Below are positions 4,282 through 37,805 of a stretch of 37,805 bases of DNA, one piece after another; within the stretch, counting starts at the first letter, position 1, and every line of letters starts with the position of its first letter. Source of the stretch: a virus. Below the pieces are notes generated by a model. It saw only the letters and a list, made by a program, of their open reading frames with translations, was not told the DNA's origin and made no database searches. The translations under genes were made by a program, and so were the position numbers. Where the stretch lies: positions 1 through 37,805 of IMG/VR virus record IMGVR_UViG_3300036845_000564; one strand, 5' to 3'.

Positions 4282-4887
4282 TCAGTTTGGTTTCTCGGCC
4301 ATAGCGCGGAGGACCTCGCGGGCGATTTCCTTCTGGTCGGCGCTCGAATCTGCCGATGTGAGGACTTTCTCTGCCCGCTCGATCATCTCATCCGTGCGAT
4401 CCATTCGCTCTTCGAATGCCTTGTGAAGATCGGCCTCGGTGATGGGCCGCCGTGGCGACGACGCCTGTAATGCCCGCATATCTGTCAACTTTCGTAGATG
4501 CATCTTCTCCACAAAGTCCGGCTGATCGGCTTCGAGTTGAACGCCGGCGGCGCATGAGCAATACGTACGTTGACCGTTGCGGAAGACGTGTCCCCAATCC
4601 TGGCACAGGGCGCAATTGACCGGAGGCTTGGGGCCGAGATCAATCGTGCGGCGCTCTGGCGCAAGGGCTGGACGTTTTTCCTTCATCAACTCGATCAAAC
4701 CGGCCTTTCCCATCCACTTCGGCCATTCGCGGGCGCGATCGACCAGCCATCTCGCCTCATCGTCGTCAGCGCAGAGCCTCTCTATATCTTCAGCAAGAGC
4801 CTCGATCGCGTCGTCCGCCCGTGGACAGTCAGGAATGGTCGTAAGCCGCATCGCGAGTCGATACGCCAATCCTTCATTTACCGGCAC
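4282..4887 (-). CDS. Zinc-ribbon protein, possible replication accessory/helicase-loader partner (201 aa)
   Basis: GTG 4887 has AGGAAAAAG upstream and overlaps the initiator-like gene by 14 bases. A four-cysteine knuckle sits at about residues 92-112 (CALC, then YCSC). Before it is a helical region with acidic runs (AIEALAEDIERLCADDDEA); after it is a long charged helix (DLHKAFEERMDRTDEMIER) that may form a coiled coil. The gene follows a winged-helix replication-initiator candidate, the usual place for a helicase loader or primosome partner, but no Walker A motif is present, so it is not a DnaC-type ATPase. The role is inferred from context and the metal site only. Confidence 0.6.
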   Translation of the reverse strand: MPVNEGLAYRLAMRLTTIPDCPRADDAIEALAEDIERLCADDDEARWLVDRAREWPKWMGKAGLIELMKEKRPALAPERRTIDLGPKPPVNCALCQDWGHVFRNGQRTYCSCAAGVQLEADQPDFVEKMHLRKLTDMRALQASSPRRPITEADLHKAFEERMDRTDEMIERAEKVLTSADSSADQKEIAREVLRAMAEKPN

Positions 4888-6067
4888 GGGCTTTTTCCTC
4901 TAGCCGCCGCCGCACATAATCGGCTCGCTTCTCTTCAGCCCGACTCATAGGCTTCGGCGGCGACCCGTTACCCGCCGCTGCTTTCGCTTCTCTGTACCGC
5001 TCTCCATCCTGGGCTACTTCCTTGGCCTTCGAGATTATCAGGCCCCATGTCCGCGGCGGGCTCTTGGTGGGTCTGGTCGTTACCTCTTTAAATTGCTCGA
5101 GCAGTTCAGGGGTGGTGATGTGCTTCGCTACTTCGTCGACGGTTTCGGGCGTGAGAGCGGGGATTGCGATGGTCTTCAGGTGCTGCTGGATTTGAGGTTT
5201 TAGAGATTCATTTTCAGAAACCAACCCTTCCGGCCGGCCAGCCGGTTTTGCTTCTTCAGGAGCGGGAGCAGGGAGCGGAGGTGGAGCGGATATCGGTGGA
5301 GGAGAAGGCGGTTCAGGAGCGGGAGGAGCTAAAACCGGCTGGCTGGCTGGGGGTTGGGGTTCTTTAATCAGTCCTTCTAGTACTTCTTCCTTATATAGGG
5401 CGGGTTGCGCGTAATCGCTTCTGAGCTCGCGCGCTAGCGCATCCTGGGCCTCTTGCAAGGTGCGCGCCATTGGCTCGTACTTGGCGATAAACAGGGTGCG
5501 CGCAGGTTCATCGAAATCTGCGAAATTTTCGGGGAGGGGGATTCTTAGGCGTCTTGCGAGGGCGACGGCCGGCTTTACGGCGTCAGGAACCCACTCAGGA
5601 ATGCAGGGTGCGCGCACCCCGGTTTCCGCTTCCTTGGGTGGAAGCGGTTTCGCTAGGAAGTATATCTCAACATTGCCTTTATGTAAATCGCCGCCGTTTA
5701 TTGCGCGGCGTTTGATGACGCCTTTCTCTTCCAGTCCGGCGACGGTTCCGCGGGCGTCCCCGTCGTCGATATCGTCCATCCTAGCGATATCCGTAGTAGT
5801 CAGCCTCCGGCATGGCCGGCCTTTGACTTTCAAATCGCCCCGCGGATCGAGAATGACGGCGAGCTGCTGCCCCCAGCCCATACTGCAGGATTCGATCCTG
5901 GCATACACTCGGTGTTCTAATCTCGAAAACGCATCCGTCGTCCTGCGCTCGCAGCCGGCCTTAGGGTTGATATACCACTTACCCTTGCCGAGTTCGATTT
6001 GCTCGCCGTCGATGCCAAGAATCTGGGTTGTGCCACTTGTCGCTGGTTCCGCGAGTACGCCGTTCAT
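4874..6067 (-). CDS. Winged-helix replication initiator candidate (397 aa)
   Basis: ATG 6067 overlaps the TGA of the upstream gene (ATGA). Residues about 45-140 form a winged-helix-like domain: AFSRLEHRVYARIESCSM, a loop with DLKVKGRPCRRLTTTDIARM, then GTVAGLEEKGVIKRRAI, whose order of helices and a final basic wing is seen in phage O-like replication proteins. Residues about 235-290 are a Pro/Ala-rich linker. The C-terminal part (about 290-397) is helical, with TWGLIISKAKEVAQDG and a basic end, and could contact the helicase or a loader. O-type proteins often carry the origin within their own gene; no clear iterons were seen. The assignment rests on architecture and operon position. Confidence 0.6.
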   Translation of the reverse strand: MNGVLAEPATSGTTQILGIDGEQIELGKGKWYINPKAGCERRTTDAFSRLEHRVYARIESCSMGWGQQLAVILDPRGDLKVKGRPCRRLTTTDIARMDDIDDGDARGTVAGLEEKGVIKRRAINGGDLHKGNVEIYFLAKPLPPKEAETGVRAPCIPEWVPDAVKPAVALARRLRIPLPENFADFDEPARTLFIAKYEPMARTLQEAQDALARELRSDYAQPALYKEEVLEGLIKEPQPPASQPVLAPPAPEPPSPPPISAPPPLPAPAPEEAKPAGRPEGLVSENESLKPQIQQHLKTIAIPALTPETVDEVAKHITTPELLEQFKEVTTRPTKSPPRTWGLIISKAKEVAQDGERYREAKAAAGNGSPPKPMSRAEEKRADYVRRRLEEKARAGK

Positions 6068-6435
6068 TGGAGTTCTCCAGAGCTCTGGCGCCGCCCCTCG
6101 CGCTGTTGAGGATCACTTGATTCGTTCTGCGCGGCGAGCAACTGCGTCTCGAAATGCCGAATCTGTCCCTTTAATGTTTTGGCCCGGGATCTGGCAGGCT
6201 TCCGTTTTCCAGCCGCATATTCGAAGTGCTGCTTGCTCGTATCGAAGCCCCAAACCATGTGGAGCTCAAATTCCTGGCCCGCTTCTTCGAGTGTTTGCCC
6301 AACGGAGCAGGCTCCGCAGTATTGACAGCAGATCAGCCAGGGAGCTGATGCGTCGTATCCCTTTATGAACCAGCCGCGAAAGACTTTAGCTAGTTGTTTT
6401 GGGAATTCTGTATTGGCGAGCGAATTGGAACCCAT
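6064..6435 (-). CDS. Zinc-finger-like small protein, first gene of the leftward operon (123 aa)
   Basis: AGGAGAG five bases before ATG 6435 fixes the start; the longer frame to 6555 has no such site. Residues about 35-50 read CCQYCGACSVGQ, and a histidine-containing helix (EFELHMVWGFD) follows. That is a plausible CxxC...H metal site in a zinc-finger-like fold. The C-terminal 50 residues are basic and helical (AAGKRKPARSRAKTLKGQIR, then HFETQLLAAQN). Its position immediately downstream of the switch region suggests an early regulator or DNA-binding protein. Confidence 0.6.
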   Translation of the reverse strand: MGSNSLANTEFPKQLAKVFRGWFIKGYDASAPWLICCQYCGACSVGQTLEEAGQEFELHMVWGFDTSKQHFEYAAGKRKPARSRAKTLKGQIRHFETQLLAAQNESSDPQQREGRRQSSGELQ

Positions 6436-6557
6436 CGATCTCTCCTGGTGCAAAAAATAAAGCACTTGCGCCAAGGCCCGCGAAAGATGGATAATAAATC
6501 CGTCTCTAGCGGGTGTCCTTGGTGTGTCCTGCAGACTGCCTTGTTTAACTCGCACTC

Positions 6558-6594
6558 CCTCCTCTTCCTGACCGCCAAGCCTAGGAAGAAGAGG
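6558..6594. promoter_or_regulatory. Inverted repeat CCTCCTCTTCCT / AGGAAGAAGAGG
   Basis: Two 12-base arms (6558-6569 and 6583-6594) pair at 11 of 12 positions around a 13-base spacer. It lies about 120 bases upstream of the first leftward gene. It could be an operator or a hairpin in the leader of the leftward transcript; neither is shown by other evidence. Confidence 0.45.
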
Positions 6595-6718
6595 TGTGCC
6601 TATACTCTAGGGCGGCGCATCGACGACCTCCCAATGTCTATCACCGTATTGAAAAGGAATCATTTGGCTTCCCCGCGTGACCGGGGCGTGTCTGGGGGAG
6701 CGGTGCGGTTCACGCGCA

Positions 6719-6732
6719 GCCGTTAGAACGGC
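6719..6732. promoter_or_regulatory. Palindrome GCCGTTAGAACGGC
   Basis: A perfect 6+2+6 palindrome in the gene-free switch region, of the size of a dimer-binding operator. It is flanked by G- and C-rich runs that may form a larger imperfect stem. No second copy was found near the repressor. Confidence 0.35.
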
Positions 6733-6941
6733 CGCCCGCCCCGCGCCCCCCAAATCGTCATGAGTATTACACGGGAGATCCATCCAGTGCAAGGAGAAAT
6801 CAAGGAAACCCCTTATGCCCCTGAGGATGGTTGTAATCTTCCAGTGGAAGGTGATAGGATCTTGTTGCAGCATACGGGTTCTAGACGTAGGCTTGCAATC
6901 GCCGGGCGGGGCCAAGGAGAGGGAGCTTTAGCTTTGGCGAG

Positions 6942-6992
6942 CTAGTAACACACGGTACTCTTTTGCCTTGGTCCTGCCCAACTCTTTGCCAT
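6942..6992 (-). CDS. Possible 16-aa leader peptide
   Basis: AAGGAG (complement of 6999-7004) stands six bases before ATG 6992, an ideal Shine-Dalgarno arrangement. It is followed by only 16 codons (MAKSWAGPRQKSTVCY) before TAG. It could be a leader peptide for the leftward operon or the remnant of a longer gene. Codon use is not informative at this length. Confidence 0.3.
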   Translation of the reverse strand: MAKSWAGPRQKSTVCY

Positions 6993-7050
6993 CCGTGACT
7001 CCTTGTTGAATTCGGCTTCAATTCTACCTCCGTCGAACGCCTGAGCAATA

Positions 7051-7096
7051 GGGGGATTTCCACCCCCAGCCGATCCGCCGTGTCCGGATCGGTTTT
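7051..7096 (+). terminator. Tandem hairpins with T-run, rho-independent terminator
   Basis: GGGGG (7051-7055) pairs with CCCCC (7063-7067). CCGATCCG (7070-7077) then pairs perfectly with CGGATCGG (7085-7092), and TTTT follows at once. The second hairpin has the form of an intrinsic terminator for rightward transcription. No rightward gene ends here, so it would end either read-through or a small non-coding RNA from the switch region, just before the repressor promoter. Confidence 0.6.
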
Positions 7097-7124
7097 GACT
7101 GAATGACTCCCTAGGGTAAACCTG

Positions 7125-7160
7125 CATTATATAGCGGGATGCTATATAGCGTGGTAGAAT
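7125..7160. promoter_or_regulatory. Repressor operators and divergent promoter boxes
   Basis: GCTATATAGC (7141-7150) is a perfect 10-base palindrome, and ATTATATAGC (7126-7135) is a near copy 15 bases upstream. On the minus strand the left copy contains an exact TATAAT (complement of 7126-7131), a good -10 box for the leftward operon, though with no clear -35. On the plus strand TGGTAGAAT (7152-7160) is an extended -10 that would start the repressor transcript near 7167. Operators covering both promoters fit autoregulation by the XRE protein encoded next door. Confidence 0.5.
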
Positions 7161-7188
7161 CTCGCGCAAGTTGGGATGTTGGCAGGTT

Positions 7189-7452
7189 ATGCAACCTCCC
7201 TCGCGCGCCGGGGTGATGCGCGCTTTTGGCCGAACAATCCGCGAACTGCGCGAAAGAACGGGAATATCGCAGGAAGGGCTGGCTCTCGAGGCGGCCGTAT
7301 CGAGGAGATACATGAGCGGCCTCGAGCAAGGGCGGCATAATCCCACGCTGGAACTTGTATGCCGTCTCATGCCCGCGCTCAAAACCAACTTCGTCACATT
7401 CGCGGCCCGCTTCGAAGCGCACCTCCGCGAGGAAAAAACCGGCAGACATTGA
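7189..7452 (+). CDS. XRE-family helix-turn-helix repressor (CI/Cro-like, 87 aa)
   Basis: Residues about 16-65 are a classical lambda-repressor fold: FGRTIRELRERTGISQEGLA, then VSRRYMSGLEQGRHNPTLEL, with Q-x3-A in helix 2 and the recognition helix RRYMSGLEQG. There is no C-terminal peptidase or dimerisation domain, so it resembles a small Cro-like or compact repressor. Starts at TTG 7171, ATG 7189, GTG 7213 and ATG 7216 are all in frame and none has a strong ribosome binding site; ATG 7216 would give the usual short N-terminus. The palindromes at 7125-7150 are likely operators. Expected to act as the lysogeny switch. Confidence 0.8.
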   Translation: MQPPSRAGVMRAFGRTIRELRERTGISQEGLALEAAVSRRYMSGLEQGRHNPTLELVCRLMPALKTNFVTFAARFEAHLREEKTGRH

Positions 7453-7546
7453 CCGGCCTGTTATATCCTTTGGTTTGCAAAGCAAGAAAAAACCGCCGCA
7501 GAAAGCCGCGCCAAAGCCGCAGATCATTCCCGCTAAAGAGCCCCAG

Positions 7547-7945
7547 GTGAGTGCCCAGCGGATGAAACTGCTCGAGGAATTCGCGGTCCTCGACCAGGAA
7601 GTGGCCAACTTCAAATCGAGGCTTTTGCGCCACGAAAAGCTGCGATCGCTGATCCTCGGCTGGAATCCGGCTCTCCCTCCCGACGAAGAACAGAGACTTA
7701 TCTCGAAAACCTGCGATATCATTATCACGAGTCGAGATAGAATTCGAAGCGTTTCCCCTGGAGGGAAGAAGGCTCTTTACAAACTCTGGGGATCCAGCGG
7801 CTTCATCGCCAAGAGCATAGTCCTCTTGAAGTCGCTACCGGACCCGGAAGACAAAGGCGGCCTGTATACCGTGCAGGCGCCAATCGGCCCTAGACACCTG
7901 AAGGTGGTGAAAAGGGAGCAGGCAACGCGCATCTCCGCTGCCTGA
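7547..7945 (+). CDS. Hypothetical protein downstream of the repressor (about 132 aa)
   Basis: The frame is open well upstream, into the repressor gene, and upstream codons also look coding (a Lys/Pro-rich KKKPPQKAAPKP section). TTG 7475, GTG 7547 and ATG 7562 are all candidates; I give GTG 7547. The product has a charged helical N-terminus (MKLLEEFAVLDQEVANFKSR), then LRSLILGWNPALPPDEEQRL and a basic C-terminal half with HLKVVKREQATR. No family is recognised. Position suggests a co-expressed lysogeny or regulatory gene. Confidence 0.55.
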   Translation: MSAQRMKLLEEFAVLDQEVANFKSRLLRHEKLRSLILGWNPALPPDEEQRLISKTCDIIITSRDRIRSVSPGGKKALYKLWGSSGFIAKSIVLLKSLPDPEDKGGLYTVQAPIGPRHLKVVKREQATRISAA

Positions 7946-8058
7946 ACGTCTCTCGGGGGGGACGGCCGAAACTTCCTCGTCGTAGTAAGTAGAGCATCGC
8001 TGTGCTTGTTCTCGCGCGTCCGCGCATCCCGGTGACATCCGGATCGACGGTGATTGAA

Positions 8059-8280
8059 ATGGCGGGCCCTGAGCGCGCCTTGAGACTGCTCGATGCCGGC
8101 AATGCATCGCCGGTCTATACGCGCGCAAGACGCCTCGGCGCAATCGAGCTCCTTGCGCAGGGCGACGACTTCCGCGTGAAGTGCCGGCGCGGGAACCCGC
8201 AGAAATTTACGACCCGGGCGGAAACATCCGATAACCCGAAGAACGTCTGGATGTATAAGCGCATTGCTACCGGGTTGTGA
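8059..8280 (+). CDS. Small hypothetical protein (73 aa)
   Basis: The product begins MAGPERALRLLDAGNASPVY and continues with TRARRLGAIELLAQGDDFRV and a basic central part (KCRRGNPQKF), ending in WMYKRIATGL. It looks like a small basic, possibly nucleic-acid-binding protein. The frame is open back to GTG 8002, but I see no ribosome binding site at either start. No family is recognised. Confidence 0.5.
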   Translation: MAGPERALRLLDAGNASPVYTRARRLGAIELLAQGDDFRVKCRRGNPQKFTTRAETSDNPKNVWMYKRIATGL

Positions 8281-8359
8281 GATGTCGCGGGCGGGGATGG
8301 CAAATCTCGGGGGAGGTGGCCATCATCCGACGCGGCATTATCGGGGCTGACCCATCGGG

Positions 8360-8396
8360 CCGCCGTCCCTCTCCCTCTTCAGTTGAGGGGCGGCGG
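8360..8396 (+). promoter_or_regulatory. Strong hairpin upstream of the small terminase gene
   Basis: CCGCCGTCCCTC (8360-8371) pairs with GAGGGGCGGCGG (8385-8396) at 11 of 12 positions, with one G-U in RNA, around a 13-base loop. No T-run follows, so it is not a typical terminator. The whole 8281-8425 gap has no gene. Sites near terS are often packaging starts (pac), so a packaging or leader function is possible. Confidence 0.4.
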
Positions 8397-8425
8397 GTGA
8401 TCGGGCGGCCCCGCTAAAAGCCTGA

Positions 8426-8887
8426 ATGCCCCGGAAAGCCGCGAAGAAGGCCGCGGAGCCGAAGAGCACCGTAGAACGCGCCAGGGATCTCCTCAAAGCG
8501 TATGCCGAGACCTGTAACATTCGCCAGGCCTGCAGGAAGGCAAAAGTTGCGCGCAGCACGCATTACAAGTGGCTCGAGAAATATCCGAAGTACCGCGACT
8601 CTTTCACAAAAACGAAGCTTTGGGCAGCGGAGTATCTGGAATCCGTCGCCGTCGAGCGGGCGAGCGTCGGATGGCTCGAACCAGTGCATTACCAGGGCGC
8701 GGTCTGTGGCCATGTCAGGCGATTCTCGGACGGATTGATGATGAAGCTGCTCACCGGCATGATGCCCGAAAAGTACGGCATCAAGCGGCAGGAAATCTCT
8801 GGACCGCAGGGCGCTCCTATCCAGGCGAAGATCGAAATCGTTTTTGTGAGACCAGGTGACGTCGCAACTTCCGATCAGCAACGCTAA
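8426..8887 (+). CDS. terS: Terminase small subunit (153 aa)
   Basis: Residues about 24-60 (LKAYAETCNIRQACRKAKVA, then RSTHYKWLEKYPKYRDSF) form a homeodomain-like helix-turn-helix of the type found in phBC6A51-like small terminase subunits. A helical middle and a beta-rich C-terminal tail (APIQAKIEIVFVRPGD) follow, as expected for oligomerisation and contact with the large subunit. The gene overlaps the start of terL by 32 bases. The protein should recognise the packaging site and load the large subunit on DNA. Assignment is by domain form and by its position before terL. Confidence 0.8.
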   Translation: MPRKAAKKAAEPKSTVERARDLLKAYAETCNIRQACRKAKVARSTHYKWLEKYPKYRDSFTKTKLWAAEYLESVAVERASVGWLEPVHYQGAVCGHVRRFSDGLMMKLLTGMMPEKYGIKRQEISGPQGAPIQAKIEIVFVRPGDVATSDQQR

Positions 8888-10133
8888 GTTCCCCGAAGCG
8901 CTCGAGTTTCTTTTTGAGCCGGCGCCATTCAAGGTAGCCTATGGCGGCCGCGGCGCGACCAAAAGCTGGGGATTCGCGCGGGCGATTCTGATCCGCGGCG
9001 CCGAGACCAAACTGCGCGTTCTCCTCGCGCGTGAGACGCAAAAGTCGATCAAAGATTCCGTCCACCAGCTGCTCGAGGAGCAGATCAAAGCGCTGGGCCT
9101 CGATGCGTTCTACCGCATCGAAAAGTCGGCGATCTACGGCACCAACGGAACGGAGCTCCTCTTCGCGGGCCTCAAAATGAACGTGGATAATCTGAAATCC
9201 ATGGAGGCGATCGATCTCTGCTGGGTGGAGGAAGCGCAGTCGGTCTCGAAAACATCCTGGGACAAGCTTATTCCCACGCTCTTCCGCGTCCCCGGTTGCG
9301 AGTTGTGGGTGTCGTTCAATCCCGATCTCGAGAGTGATGACACCTACCGCCGGTTCGTCATCGAGCCTCCCGAAGGCGCCGTCGTCCGCAAGCTCACCTT
9401 CCGCGACAACCCGTGGTTTCCGGAAGGCCTGCGGAAGCTGATGGAGGAGGACAAGAAGCGCAATATCGATGAGTACAACCACATCTGGGAAGGCGTCTGC
9501 ATCAACACGCTCGCGAACGCGATCTATGCGAACGAACTACGGGCCGTGGATGTGGAAGGGCGTATTAAGCGGGTCCCCTACGATCCGTCGAGGCCCGTCG
9601 ACACGGCGTGGGATCTCGGCTATGGCGACATGGTGAGCATCTGGATGTTTCAGGCGTTCCCCATGGAGTACCGCATCATCGATTACGAAGAAGGCGAGCG
9701 GCAGCCGCTGCATTCCTACCTGGCTGAACTGCAGAAGCGTGGGTACGTGTTCGGCACGGCGTACCTGCCTTGGGATGGAGGCCTGAAATCACTCGGCACG
9801 GGAAAGTCGATCGAGGAGCAGATGAAAGCCGTGGGATGGAGGGTGAAGGTAGCGCCGCGGCTACCAATAGTCGATGGCATCAATGCCGCGCGCACGGTGT
9901 TTCCGCTCTGCTGGTTCGATGAGCAGAGAACAGTAACGGGTATCCGGCGCCTGAGAATGTACCGCTACGGCGAAATGCAGAGCTATGAAGGACCAACGCG
10001 CGAACCTCTACACGATATGCATTCGCACTGCGCCGACGCATTTCGCTGCCTTGCTGTGTCGATACGCGAGCCGCAGAAAGAGCGACGTGCGGAAGAGCAG
10101 AGGCAAAGGCAGGCTACGAGCCCATGGAGTTGA
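8856..10133 (+). CDS. terL: Terminase large subunit (425 aa)
   Basis: GTG 8856 starts the frame inside terS. The ATPase half carries Walker A GGRGATKS (residues 30-37) and Walker B CWVEEA (122-127). The SFNPD motif at about 153-157 is typical of PBSX-type terminases. The nuclease half has the acidic residues expected of an RNase H-like fold: D253 in WDLG, D307 in PWDG and D394 in CADAFRC. Length is normal for the family. It cuts concatemeric DNA and pumps it into the procapsid through the portal. Confidence is high for function, lower for the packaging type, which is probably headful. Confidence 0.95.
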   Translation: MTSQLPISNAKFPEALEFLFEPAPFKVAYGGRGATKSWGFARAILIRGAETKLRVLLARETQKSIKDSVHQLLEEQIKALGLDAFYRIEKSAIYGTNGTELLFAGLKMNVDNLKSMEAIDLCWVEEAQSVSKTSWDKLIPTLFRVPGCELWVSFNPDLESDDTYRRFVIEPPEGAVVRKLTFRDNPWFPEGLRKLMEEDKKRNIDEYNHIWEGVCINTLANAIYANELRAVDVEGRIKRVPYDPSRPVDTAWDLGYGDMVSIWMFQAFPMEYRIIDYEEGERQPLHSYLAELQKRGYVFGTAYLPWDGGLKSLGTGKSIEEQMKAVGWRVKVAPRLPIVDGINAARTVFPLCWFDEQRTVTGIRRLRMYRYGEMQSYEGPTREPLHDMHSHCADAFRCLAVSIREPQKERRAEEQRQRQATSPWS

Positions 10134-34696: not shown

Positions 34697-34923
34697 AGCG
34701 GCCGCGCGCCAAGCTCTACGATCTCAGCAAGCTAGTCATCGGGGCTACCGACAAGCCGTCCCAGACCGGCCGCAAGGTCCCTCAGGTCCGCATCCCTGCC
34801 AAGAAGACGAAGTTCCGCGGCCAGTGCCCAACCTGTGGCGGCTCCAAGGTCATCCATTCCCCCATAGCCGGCGAGACCTGGCTCTGCCCTCAATGCACCG
34901 GGTATAAGCAGTGCGGAGTTTAA
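34693..34923 (+). CDS. Small zinc-ribbon protein (76 aa)
   Basis: ATG 34693 overlaps the previous stop (ATGA). The first 40 residues are basic (KRPRAKLYDLSKLVIGATDK). Residues about 45-69 (CPTCGGSKVIHSPIAGETWL followed by CPQC) form a standard CxxC-CxxC zinc ribbon, likely binding nucleic acid. It precedes an HNH-type gene and may act with it in DNA metabolism. Confidence 0.65.
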   Translation: MKRPRAKLYDLSKLVIGATDKPSQTGRKVPQVRIPAKKTKFRGQCPTCGGSKVIHSPIAGETWLCPQCTGYKQCGV

Positions 34924-35309
34924 ACAACCACCAGCTTCGCCGCTGGCTCATGAAAGAGATACACGGCATCGAGATCCCGCGGAAGCCTCCGCAAAAGGCT
35001 TCCGTCCTCGGCGCCAAGAAGACGGCGAGATCCTGGCGCTACCTCGCCTGGATACGCAGCCTGCCCTGTGCATCCTGCGGTCAAGATCCTGCTGGCGAGG
35101 CGGCTCATACGGGCTCAGACGGCGGGATGTCGATGAAGGCATCAGACTACTCAGCTGTTCCTCTGTGCCCCAATTGCCACAGCATGTCATCGGATTCCTA
35201 CCACGTCCTCGGCCGCGACGACTTCGAACGCCGGCACAGTCTCGACCTGGCTGCGATCAGGAAACGTCTGAATCGCCTTTGGTTTCATCCGGAGAACCGG
35301 ATTGCTTAA
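34911..35309 (+). CDS. HNH-type nuclease-like protein (DUF968-like, 132 aa)
   Basis: GTG 34911 lies inside the previous gene; ATG 34950 is an alternative. After a basic N-terminus, RYLAWIRSLPCASCGQDP starts the domain. AAHTGSDGGMSMKASDYSAV then PLCPNCHSMS, and a helical part (RDDFERRHSLDLAAIRKRLN) follow. CxxC, AH-[TS]-G, a second CxxC-H and the downstream helix are the order of zinc-bound HNH nucleases of the DUF968 kind in phages. It should cut or process DNA, for example in recombination. The 3' end overlaps a minus-strand gene by 123 bases. Confidence 0.7.
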   Translation: MRSLNNHQLRRWLMKEIHGIEIPRKPPQKASVLGAKKTARSWRYLAWIRSLPCASCGQDPAGEAAHTGSDGGMSMKASDYSAVPLCPNCHSMSSDSYHVLGRDDFERRHSLDLAAIRKRLNRLWFHPENRIA

Positions 35310-36122: not shown

Positions 36123-36335
36123 TCAGTTGAAACCGCTGATCCATCTGCGAACCGCGTCTTGATCGTTGTGCGCTCCATAGTACATCGGCGCAATCCGGAG
36201 CCCTATATGGTTTTTAAGTTCCGGGTGCTTGGTGAGATCCGACATCATCGATGTTATGGCCTCCAGTGGATCTTGCGGCAGATATTCGAGAGCCCGCTTT
36301 TTCGCCCATTCGAGATGCTCATCGCGCGTGATCAC
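36123..36335 (-). CDS. Small conserved phage protein, ends in VRRWISGFN (70 aa)
   Basis: GTG 36335 overlaps the TGA of the integrase fusion gene (GTGA), with GGGAG upstream. The product (ITRDEHLEWAKKRALEYLPQ, MMSDLTKHPELKNH, ending AVRRWISGFN) matches a type common in phages: TRDEhLxWaKxRALeYl...a..SmxSDLxKHPEt...RRxIxGFN. Its role is unknown; it often lies beside integrase or DNA-metabolism genes. Confidence 0.7.
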   Translation of the reverse strand: MITRDEHLEWAKKRALEYLPQDPLEAITSMMSDLTKHPELKNHIGLRIAPMYYGAHNDQDAVRRWISGFN

Positions 36336-37387
36336 TTCCACTCCCTCAGCCTCTTCGCCCGGGCCTCATTCGCTTCTCCGGTCAGTTTGGCATAGACCAT
36401 CGTATTCTTGATTTCGACGTGTCCAACATGGGTCTGCACATCCACGATCGACTCTCTCTGGTTACTTAACAGATGGGTGCAGCAGGTGTGCTTCAACACA
36501 TGGGGATGCGCTTTCTCCCGCGGGATCTTGGCGGCCGCGCAATAGCCGCGCATCAACTGCCAGATTCTCTGCCTGGTGATGCGCCCGCGTTCGCGCGAGG
36601 GAAATAGCGGACCCTCTCCAATGCCACGCTTGCGGATCCAGGCCCTCACCGCCTGGGCGGCGATCGGCACCATCGCAGCCTCTCCGCTGATCGATCCCTT
36701 CAGGCGACGGATGTAGAGCCGGTCCATGTTCAATGCGGACCCCTGGCGGAAGTCGCTCATCTCGAGCTTCCCGATCTCGCCGGCTCTCAGCCCGTGGTGA
36801 TACAGGAGGCGGAAGATGGCGCGATCGCGCGTGCTCGAGATGGCTTTGAAGAAGCGGTCTTTCTCGGGAATCGTCAGATAGGGGATCTGTTTTGGGGCTG
36901 CGCGTTTTCGGGTCGCACGGCGATTTTTGACCGTCATTAAATCACACCCTTCTAGATAAGCTATAGCACTTTCAAGGAGATCCGAATCGTCGCGAAGCAT
37001 CGAAATCCCGCCATTACATCGGCTACAGAGAAGACCACGAACGCATTTCCCGCAACTTGAAGTCCCGGGGCAGCAACGATGATCATGATCTATCGACAGA
37101 GATTTTCCGGGTTGTGTTGTATGGCAAATGGCGCACGAGCCTCCCTGGCGGCGCAAGAATTCCAGATATTGCTTGCTGGTGATTCCGTATCGCCGGTAGA
37201 CCGCGATGCGGCCACGTTCACGGCTCTTTGGGGCACGCTCAGGTAGAGGCGTCGATTCATGGTTCGCCAGGTCGATGCATTCTCTACAAATGATGCTTCG
37301 TCCGTCTGGATTGCCACGTATCCGGTGAAATTGATCCAACGGCTTGTCAACCGCACAAGTTTGGCAGTTGCTATGATCGGCTCGCAT
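36332..37387 (-). CDS. Fusion of endonuclease VII (Holliday-junction resolvase) and tyrosine recombinase (351 aa)
   Basis: GGGAGG seven bases before ATG 37387 fixes the start. Residues 8-37 carry two CxxC pairs in a small zinc knuckle (CQTC ... CREC). Residues about 65-147 match T4 endonuclease VII: YGITSKQYLEFLRRQGG, C85xxC88, the IDHDH catalytic segment at 99-103 and VRGLLCSRCN with C121xxC124-N125. Residues about 165-351 are a tyrosine-recombinase catalytic domain: R201 in HHGLRAGEIG, K230, H296-x-L-K299-H300, GH at 322-323 and nucleophile Y332. The usual core-binding domain is missing, as in small stand-alone integrases. The position of a second Arg is Lys, which I believe is usual for these. 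An internal ATG at 36937 (residue 151) could yield the integrase alone. Confidence 0.85.
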   Translation of the reverse strand: MRADHSNCQTCAVDKPLDQFHRIRGNPDGRSIICRECIDLANHESTPLPERAPKSRERGRIAVYRRYGITSKQYLEFLRRQGGSCAICHTTQPGKSLSIDHDHRCCPGTSSCGKCVRGLLCSRCNGGISMLRDDSDLLESAIAYLEGCDLMTVKNRRATRKRAAPKQIPYLTIPEKDRFFKAISSTRDRAIFRLLYHHGLRAGEIGKLEMSDFRQGSALNMDRLYIRRLKGSISGEAAMVPIAAQAVRAWIRKRGIGEGPLFPSRERGRITRQRIWQLMRGYCAAAKIPREKAHPHVLKHTCCTHLLSNQRESIVDVQTHVGHVEIKNTMVYAKLTGEANEARAKRLREWK

Positions 37388-37486
37388 GTGAGGCCCTCCC
37401 GTGGCCTTCGTGCATGGGCCTCGCGCTGTTAGTCGCAGTGCGGGGTCCGCTTTTTAATCTCGCATAAAAAGTCTCCAAAAAAACGG
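37388..37486. other. Integrase leader region with inverted repeat
   Basis: GAGGCCC (37390-37396) can pair with GGGCCTC (37416-37422) over a 19-base loop. In the integrase mRNA the 3' arm touches the GGGAGGGCC ribosome binding site, so the stem could limit translation of the fusion gene. The rest of this stretch is A- and T-rich (runs at 37450-37482) and could be part of an attachment site, but no core sequence can be identified from one genome. Confidence 0.35.
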
Positions 37487-37582
37487 CTAGGTTGAAGTGT
37501 TCTTTTGTTGGGCTTTTTTCTCCAGTTTCACCTTTTGGCCGTAACGTAAAATTGGAGCCTTCTTTTTCGCTCGTTTCGCCAT
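37487..37582 (-). CDS. Tiny lysine-rich protein (31 aa)
   Basis: ATG 37582 is nine bases after a CATAAT box (complement of 37592-37597), the same -10 sequence as at the 34.4-kb promoters, with no Shine-Dalgarno. The product, MAKRAKKKAPILRYGQKVKL followed by EKKAQQKNTST, is very basic and might bind DNA or RNA near the integrase gene. Reading frames this short often occur by chance, so the call is tentative. Confidence 0.4.
   Translation of the reverse strand: MAKRAKKKAPILRYGQKVKLEKKAQQKNTST
37540..37551 (+). repeat. 12-bp direct repeat CGTAACGTAAAA, copy 1
   Basis: Matches 37616-37627 (CGTAAAGTAAAA) at 11 of 12 positions, 76 bases apart, upstream of the integrase gene. Possible integrase arm-type, excisionase or origin sites. 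Confidence 0.45.
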
Positions 37583-37615: not shown

Positions 37616-37627
37616 CGTAAAGTAAAA
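37616..37627 (+). repeat. 12-bp direct repeat CGTAAAGTAAAA, copy 2
   Basis: Second copy of the repeat at 37540-37551. Each copy itself holds two GTAA steps, so regulators binding as tandem subunits are conceivable. Confidence 0.45.
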
Positions 37628-37656
37628 CTCTCCGGGTGGCGGATTTTAAAGGAAAA

Positions 37657-37749
37657 ATGCCGGCGGGGCGGGCGGGGCGGGCGTTAAATCGGGCACGAAT
37701 CGGACACCCAAGGGGGGGCCGGAAACTTGGCCTATTATGGATAAAATGA
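37657..37749 (+). CDS. Possible 30-aa Arg/Gly-rich peptide across the circle junction
   Basis: AAAGGAAAA precedes ATG 37657. The frame gives MPAGRAGRALNRARIGHPRG and then GRKLGLLWIK, ending in TGA that overlaps the ATG corresponding to position 68 (ATGA). The coupling is suggestive, but GC-rich DNA produces such Arg/Gly frames by chance. Confidence 0.25.
   Translation: MPAGRAGRALNRARIGHPRGGRKLGLLWIK
37665..37681 (+). other. G-quadruplex-capable run
   Basis: GGGGCGGGCGGGGCGGG has four runs of at least three G with one-base loops, the strict consensus of a stable quadruplex on the plus strand. A further run of seven G lies at 34-40 (37712-37718). Both are upstream of the first rightward gene, at the point where the assembly opened. 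Confidence 0.6.
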
Positions 37750-37805
37750 GCGATCGCGTCAAGGTTCCCGAAAGCCCCTGCCTAAATTGCGGCACACCGC
37801 TGGGA
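37679..37805. repeat. Terminal direct repeat, right copy
   Basis: Identical to 1-127. It includes a second copy of the start of the frameshifted zinc-ribbon gene, so features in 37679-37805 are the same DNA as 1-127 and not a duplication. Confidence 0.95.

Follow-up and report, generated by a model that had tools for sequence, protein, structure and literature searches.

Homing endonucleases that split phage genes, or that lie hidden within them, are known. In typical integrases a core-binding domain precedes the catalytic domain; integrases of the FimB type lack it. In T4-like phages, the homing endonuclease insertions mobE and mobA split nrdA and the topoisomerase gene 60 (PMC2988022), and the ShiLan-type insertion is a non-splicing HNH insertion of patchy distribution in phage methylase genes (PMC11855218). 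F-CphI of cyanophage S-PM2 was shown biochemically to be a homing endonuclease and belongs to the EndoVII-motif 'DHHRN' family (PMC6083498). EndoVII proteins whose motif is C-terminal cluster for the most part with homing and restriction enzymes, and proteins whose motif is N-terminal for the most part with resolvases (Fang et al., PMC6083498). Here we describe a phage locus at which an F-CphI-like homing endonuclease gene of the EndoVII-motif type probably invaded a minimal integrase gene beside a candidate attP core, forming a nuclease–integrase fusion.

The stretch analysed, here called the window, is 37,805 nucleotides long. Since it carries a 127-bp direct terminal repeat (37679-37805 is identical to 1-127), it represents a complete phage genome, probably circular, of 37,678 bp, and it contains genes for a terminase, a portal and a major head protein as well as a repressor-like gene. 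On the minus strand, an ORF of 351 aa (36332-37387) starts with ATG and runs in a single frame through an EndoVII-type nuclease module and a tyrosine-recombinase catalytic domain. A sequence-only reading of the window had described this uninterrupted frame with its two domains, omitting the strand, and the domain searches it called for agreed. Pfam placed Endonuclease_7 on residues 65–146 (E = 1.2e-19) and Phage_integrase (PF00589) on residues 181–335 (E = 9e-25), and PHROGs assigned endonuclease VII (9e-32) and integrase (7e-28) to the same chain. The plus strand carries a second, separate HNH-type ORF at 34911-35309 (Pfam DUF968; PHROG HNH endonuclease).

The catalytic domain of the recombinase occupies residues 181–335 (36383-36847, minus strand) by Pfam and alignment. 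XerD matched the integrase part at 4e-17, and FimX and XerD were among its matches. R201, K230, H296 and Y332 had been correctly named as recombinase residues, as the alignment revealed; H323 and K299 complete the set. R201, K230, H296, H323 and Y332 (Arg I, Lys-beta, His, His III and Tyr) are kept in five of five family members. A point absent from the earlier reading is that Arg II of the HxxR motif is Lys299 in the fusion. This HxxK motif (H296/K299, residues 296–299, about 36491-36502, minus strand) is found in all five aligned members, which indicates that the lysine substitution predates the fusion. The AlphaFold model was confident in the nuclease part and poor in the integrase part because of the few relatives, so that the integrase fold rests on the profiles. 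In fold comparisons of the model, which are informative for the confident nuclease part, the restriction enzyme Hpy99I was the first match and T4 endonuclease VII the second.

Only a few codons from the junction of the two halves, the alternative frames run into TAA/TGA, which would fit two separate genes joined by an error of sequencing or assembly. However, when viral contigs were scanned with the complete fusion protein, the same fused chain was detected in one open frame in an independent assembly from another metagenome (IMGVR_UViG_3300010366_001089, hereafter L002). This single-chain homologue, of the kind the sequence-only reading had sought, is 66% identical to the window fusion over residues 1–351, retains both active sites and has a linker shorter by 6 aa; dN/dS between the two nuclease halves is 0.34. 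Because the L002 linker differs in length, a single missing base in the window cannot explain the fusion. The open fusion in L002 thus rules out an extra base near 36947-36949 that would separate the frames, and it is extremely improbable that the fusion is an artefact.

Further protein scans of viral contigs revealed no fused homologue beyond L002, and a genome scan for fused homologues returned a distant integrase (L035) only. By tblastn, no match spanning 80% of the fusion chain was found in 50,697 phage records. One match at 80% coverage was found in 72,556 plasmid records and came from two separate neighbouring genes. This candidate, the Streptomyces decoyicus plasmid NZ_CP109340 (L031), was rejected as a fusion: its EndoVII-domain and integrase genes are adjacent and unfused. 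The order at 5842-7908 of the plasmid is EndoVII-domain gene, small ORF and tyrosine integrase. The earlier statement that no phage integrase with such an architecture had been described is thus consistent with both collections, and a literature search found no paper describing such a nuclease–integrase fusion.

The nuclease module comprises residues 1–150 (36938-37387, minus strand), as delimited by Pfam, motif alignment and codon composition. It contains the whole conserved EndoVII-motif (DHHRN) set of CxxC, D, H, H, R, CxxC and N, namely C85xxC88, D100H101D102H103, R117, C121xxC124 and N125 (36944-37198, minus strand), which is conserved in L002. The module and F-CphI align colinearly over 139 of 142 aa (32% identity, E = 3e-17), including the N-terminal zinc ribbon (C8xxC11...C34xxC37), and the catalytic motif of the module sits at the C-terminal end as in the homing and restriction clade. 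T4 gp49 aligned with the module over only about residues 3–93 of its 157 residues, and over 3–89 in one of the comparisons; neither a full-length alignment with gp49 nor an N-terminal position of the motif was found. The module had been called a complete T4 gp49-like one, which is inaccurate, since the alignment with gp49 is partial, the N-terminal ribbon is extra and the C-terminal part of gp49 is missing. Assignment as a gp49-type junction resolvase is therefore not supported by the sequence comparison, and an 'endonuclease VII' domain need not mean a junction resolvase. Free-standing relatives mostly end 31–55 aa past the RG(L/I/V)(L/V)CxxCN motif, which is the position of the fusion junction. 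They are flanked by conserved genes, such as primase/polymerase in Shawty, genes 13/14 in EcoDS1 and portal/protease in Kumotta. A tree of the nuclease domain was not relied on: the domain is short, support was weak and F-CphI, with the motif RQLLC, dropped out.

The idea of the sequence-only reading can be cast as a domesticated bifunctional recombinase, whose nuclease part would act at the attachment site by cutting or clamping Holliday-junction intermediates, and so aid or abort integration. This would agree with the conservation of both active sites in two lineages, with a frame that stays open across linkers of different length and with the occurrence of junction resolvases among EndoVII-motif enzymes. 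On the other hand, the layout of the module is that of the homing clade and not of gp49, and the examined flanks of other viral EndoVII loci held no relative of the integrase.

Scans of viral contigs with the integrase half identified three nuclease-free relatives, L032 (87% identity), L033 (84%) and L040 (61-64%). Their integrases are short (203-220 aa) with only a short basic N-terminus, and no other copy of the nuclease was found in the three records. The integrase site is thus occupied in two phages (window and L002) and empty in three. The phages are related beyond the integrase: terminases across the relatives are 75-86% identical, and the gene downstream of the fusion (36123-36341, minus strand) is 84% identical to that downstream of the unfused L033 integrase. 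Since the empty allele is also present in L040, the most distant relative, the empty state is probably ancestral. A core-binding domain is absent from fused and unfused alleles alike. It had been suggested that the nuclease replaces the core-binding and arm-binding part; because the unfused integrases are already minimal, this was not borne out. That close relatives manage without the nuclease also argues against a domesticated role in recombination.

The DNA alignment located the boundaries of the insertion. The window, L002, L032 and L033 match until about 18-20 bp past a 34-bp inverted repeat. Beyond this point, the window and L002 contain extra DNA, and homology to the integrase restarts at (A/T)RKRA. 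By alignment with L032, L033 and L040, the inserted segment is about 588 bp long (36914-37501, minus strand) and consists of a spacer, a conserved leader and the nuclease ORF; the insertion point corresponds to roughly codon 25-30 of the original integrase gene. Upstream, a remnant of the old integrase 5' end, MAKRAKKKAPILRYGQKVKLEKKAQQK, aligns with the integrase starts of L032 and L033 and is followed by foreign NTST and a stop (37487-37582, minus strand). The old start is readable over 37502-37582, and its frame now stops at TAG (37487). Introns encode several of the homing endonucleases with an EndoVII motif (PMC6083498), and the nuclease might accordingly belong to a splicing element, either a group I intron or an intein. 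However, no Rfam intron matched around the insertion at gathering or relaxed thresholds, and there is no room after the ORF for a 3' intron structure. An intein is ruled out because the upstream host frame ends at its stop before the nuclease start. A splicing element is hence very improbable.

The nuclease ORF has a leader and a ribosome-binding site of its own. The conserved leader (37388-37453, minus strand), recognised by the alignment with L002 and by Shine–Dalgarno (SD) energy, ends in a strong ribosome-binding site, GGGAGG. The SD energy at the nuclease start is -10.8 kcal/mol, which ranks it in the top 0.5% of ATGs in the window. The leader is ~93% identical to that of L002 (a count by eye gave 5 differences over 68 nt) versus 69% for the coding region. 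RNA folding of the leader was no better than that of shuffles. The leader also holds a possible overlapping upstream ORF of 14 codons (MHEGHGRASHASRS). The leader was considered as a widespread mobile-element end and rejected as such, being present only in the window and the L002 contig and absent from the phage records. As there is no stop between the two halves, ribosomes starting at the nuclease ATG should make the fusion.

An internal ATG, Met151 (36935-36937), is preceded by AGAAGG 10 nt upstream (36948-36953; the whole site at 36935-36953, minus strand) and could be the start of a free 201-aa integrase. L002 has a Met and GGAG at the corresponding places, and the purine-rich motif, 10 nt upstream in both, gives -5.5 kcal/mol in the window and -5.8 in L002. 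The unfused relatives have no Met at this position. Taken together, the junction ATG with its purine-rich motif in both fused alleles and the lack of this Met in the unfused ones might suggest that two genes share a frame by chance; the nuclease would have lost its stop, the fusion would be incidental and the working integrase would start from Met151. Nevertheless, the Met151 site ranks only within the best 16% of ATGs, and the frame of the linker was kept open in both lineages despite indels. We regard this explanation as unlikely. It is compatible with a homing insertion and differs only in which product matters.

The composition of the two halves is different. GC3 is 0.47 in the nuclease half and 0.77 in the integrase half, the latter being close to the terminase, portal and capsid genes (0.75-0.76). 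Between the window and L002, pS is 0.52 for the nuclease versus 0.80 for the integrase (difference 0.28, 95% CI 0.14-0.43), with the caveat that compositional bias may depress the pS of the nuclease; pN of the nuclease is not below that of the integrase. In tree tests with five taxa, most topologies pairing both fused integrases were rejected and one was borderline (AU 0.035-0.059). Among the terminases, that of the window has its nearest relative in the unfused L032 (86%, versus 76% for L002). The foreign GC3, the lower pS, the tree tests and the kinship of the terminases together speak more for a nuclease that spread horizontally later on than for a fusion inherited from a common ancestor. 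With five taxa, an ancestral insertion followed by two losses could also have produced this distribution. The foreign GC3 and the patchy distribution are, moreover, not what a domesticated recombinase would lead one to expect.

The 34-bp imperfect inverted repeat (13+8+13; 37522-37555, minus strand) is a candidate for the attP core or for an operator of the integrase. It sits within the 5' part of the integrase gene, at the same position in L002 and L032; L040 has a similar repeat of unrelated sequence, and in the window a direct copy of one arm is found upstream at 37616-37629. The number of shuffles per 1000 that gave an equally good repeat was 2 for L040, 6 for L002, 33 for L032, 40 for the window and 229 for L033. 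The insertion lies about 20 bp from the repeat, and this closeness to a possible attP core would again suit a nuclease acting on integration intermediates. In view of the module layout, the empty alleles, the foreign composition and the patchy distribution, resolution of integration intermediates by the fusion is less likely than a homing insertion, and we consider the bifunctional recombinase quite unlikely. A further reading is that the integrase guides homing: the recombinase domain would bind its own core sites in the integrase 5' end of a co-infecting phage and deliver the nuclease about 20 bp away, and the empty allele would be cut and converted. We consider this unlikely. If it were true, a homing endonuclease would be using the integrase as its DNA-targeting domain, with occupied attP regions immune to it.

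Repetitive sequences were observed downstream of the integrase in two of the relatives. In L002, a 1.8-kb array (6300-8130) lies just downstream of the fused integrase and consists of 88 anchors, for the most part alternating between GGCTCGCTC and GGTGC(T/C)CTC, at intervals of mostly 18 bp and with spacers that are mostly variable segments of 9 nt (65 different of 73). The array adjoins an ORF (8145-8984, minus strand) that matches IS110/Transposase_20 marginally. In L040, the equivalent region behind the unfused integrase is a long G-rich stretch (4400-5200) with GG about every 5 bp (GGxxxGGxxx), interrupted by AT-rich patches, which is possibly a counterpart of the L002 array.

The homing insertion may be pictured as follows. 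A free-standing nuclease gene with its own leader and ribosome-binding site would have inserted near codon 25-30 of the integrase gene. Since the 3' side of the nuclease has no stop, translation would read in frame into the catalytic domain and yield the nuclease–integrase fusion; a free catalytic domain, if Met151 is used, is perhaps also made. In a co-infecting phage, the nuclease would cut the integrase allele that lacks the insertion, and break repair would then copy the nuclease gene into that allele; the fused integrase would presumably still recombine. The sequences themselves display the open fusion in two phages, the three empty alleles, the insertion boundaries, the 5' remnant, the foreign codon composition and the patchy distribution. 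Counted against the homing insertion are the number of fused examples (n = 2), a leader more conserved than the coding region and a nuclease pN that is not lower.

Compared with known systems, the module resembles F-CphI in its N-terminal zinc ribbon followed by CxxC-DHDH-R-CxxCN, colinear over the full length; F-CphI, however, has its own gene beside the intron-bearing psbA, whereas here the nuclease lies within the integrase gene and is fused to its product. With T4 endonuclease VII (gp49) it shares the catalytic motif and the zinc cysteines, but in gp49 the motif is N-terminal and followed by ~95 residues mostly without counterpart in the module, and a ribbon of the C8xxC11...C34xxC37 type is lacking. 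The integrase part resembles the minimal FimB/FimX-type and XerD-like integrases in having a catalytic domain of ~200 aa without a core-binding domain, and differs from them in HxxK for HxxR and in the N-terminal nuclease. As with mobE and mobA, a homing endonuclease gene is found inside a conserved phage gene; there the insertion leaves the host gene coding for separate polypeptides, whereas here the nuclease runs in frame into the 3' part. As in the ShiLan-type insertion, the gene of a phage DNA-modifying enzyme is invaded and stays open; there the HNH is out of frame with the host protein, whereas here the nuclease forms its N-terminal half. Since related phages carry the occupied and the empty allele, homing by the nuclease and the function of the fused integrase are both testable questions. 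What is new at this locus is that the host protein, a site-specific recombinase encoded beside a likely recombination site, has a homing-type nuclease as its N-terminal half.
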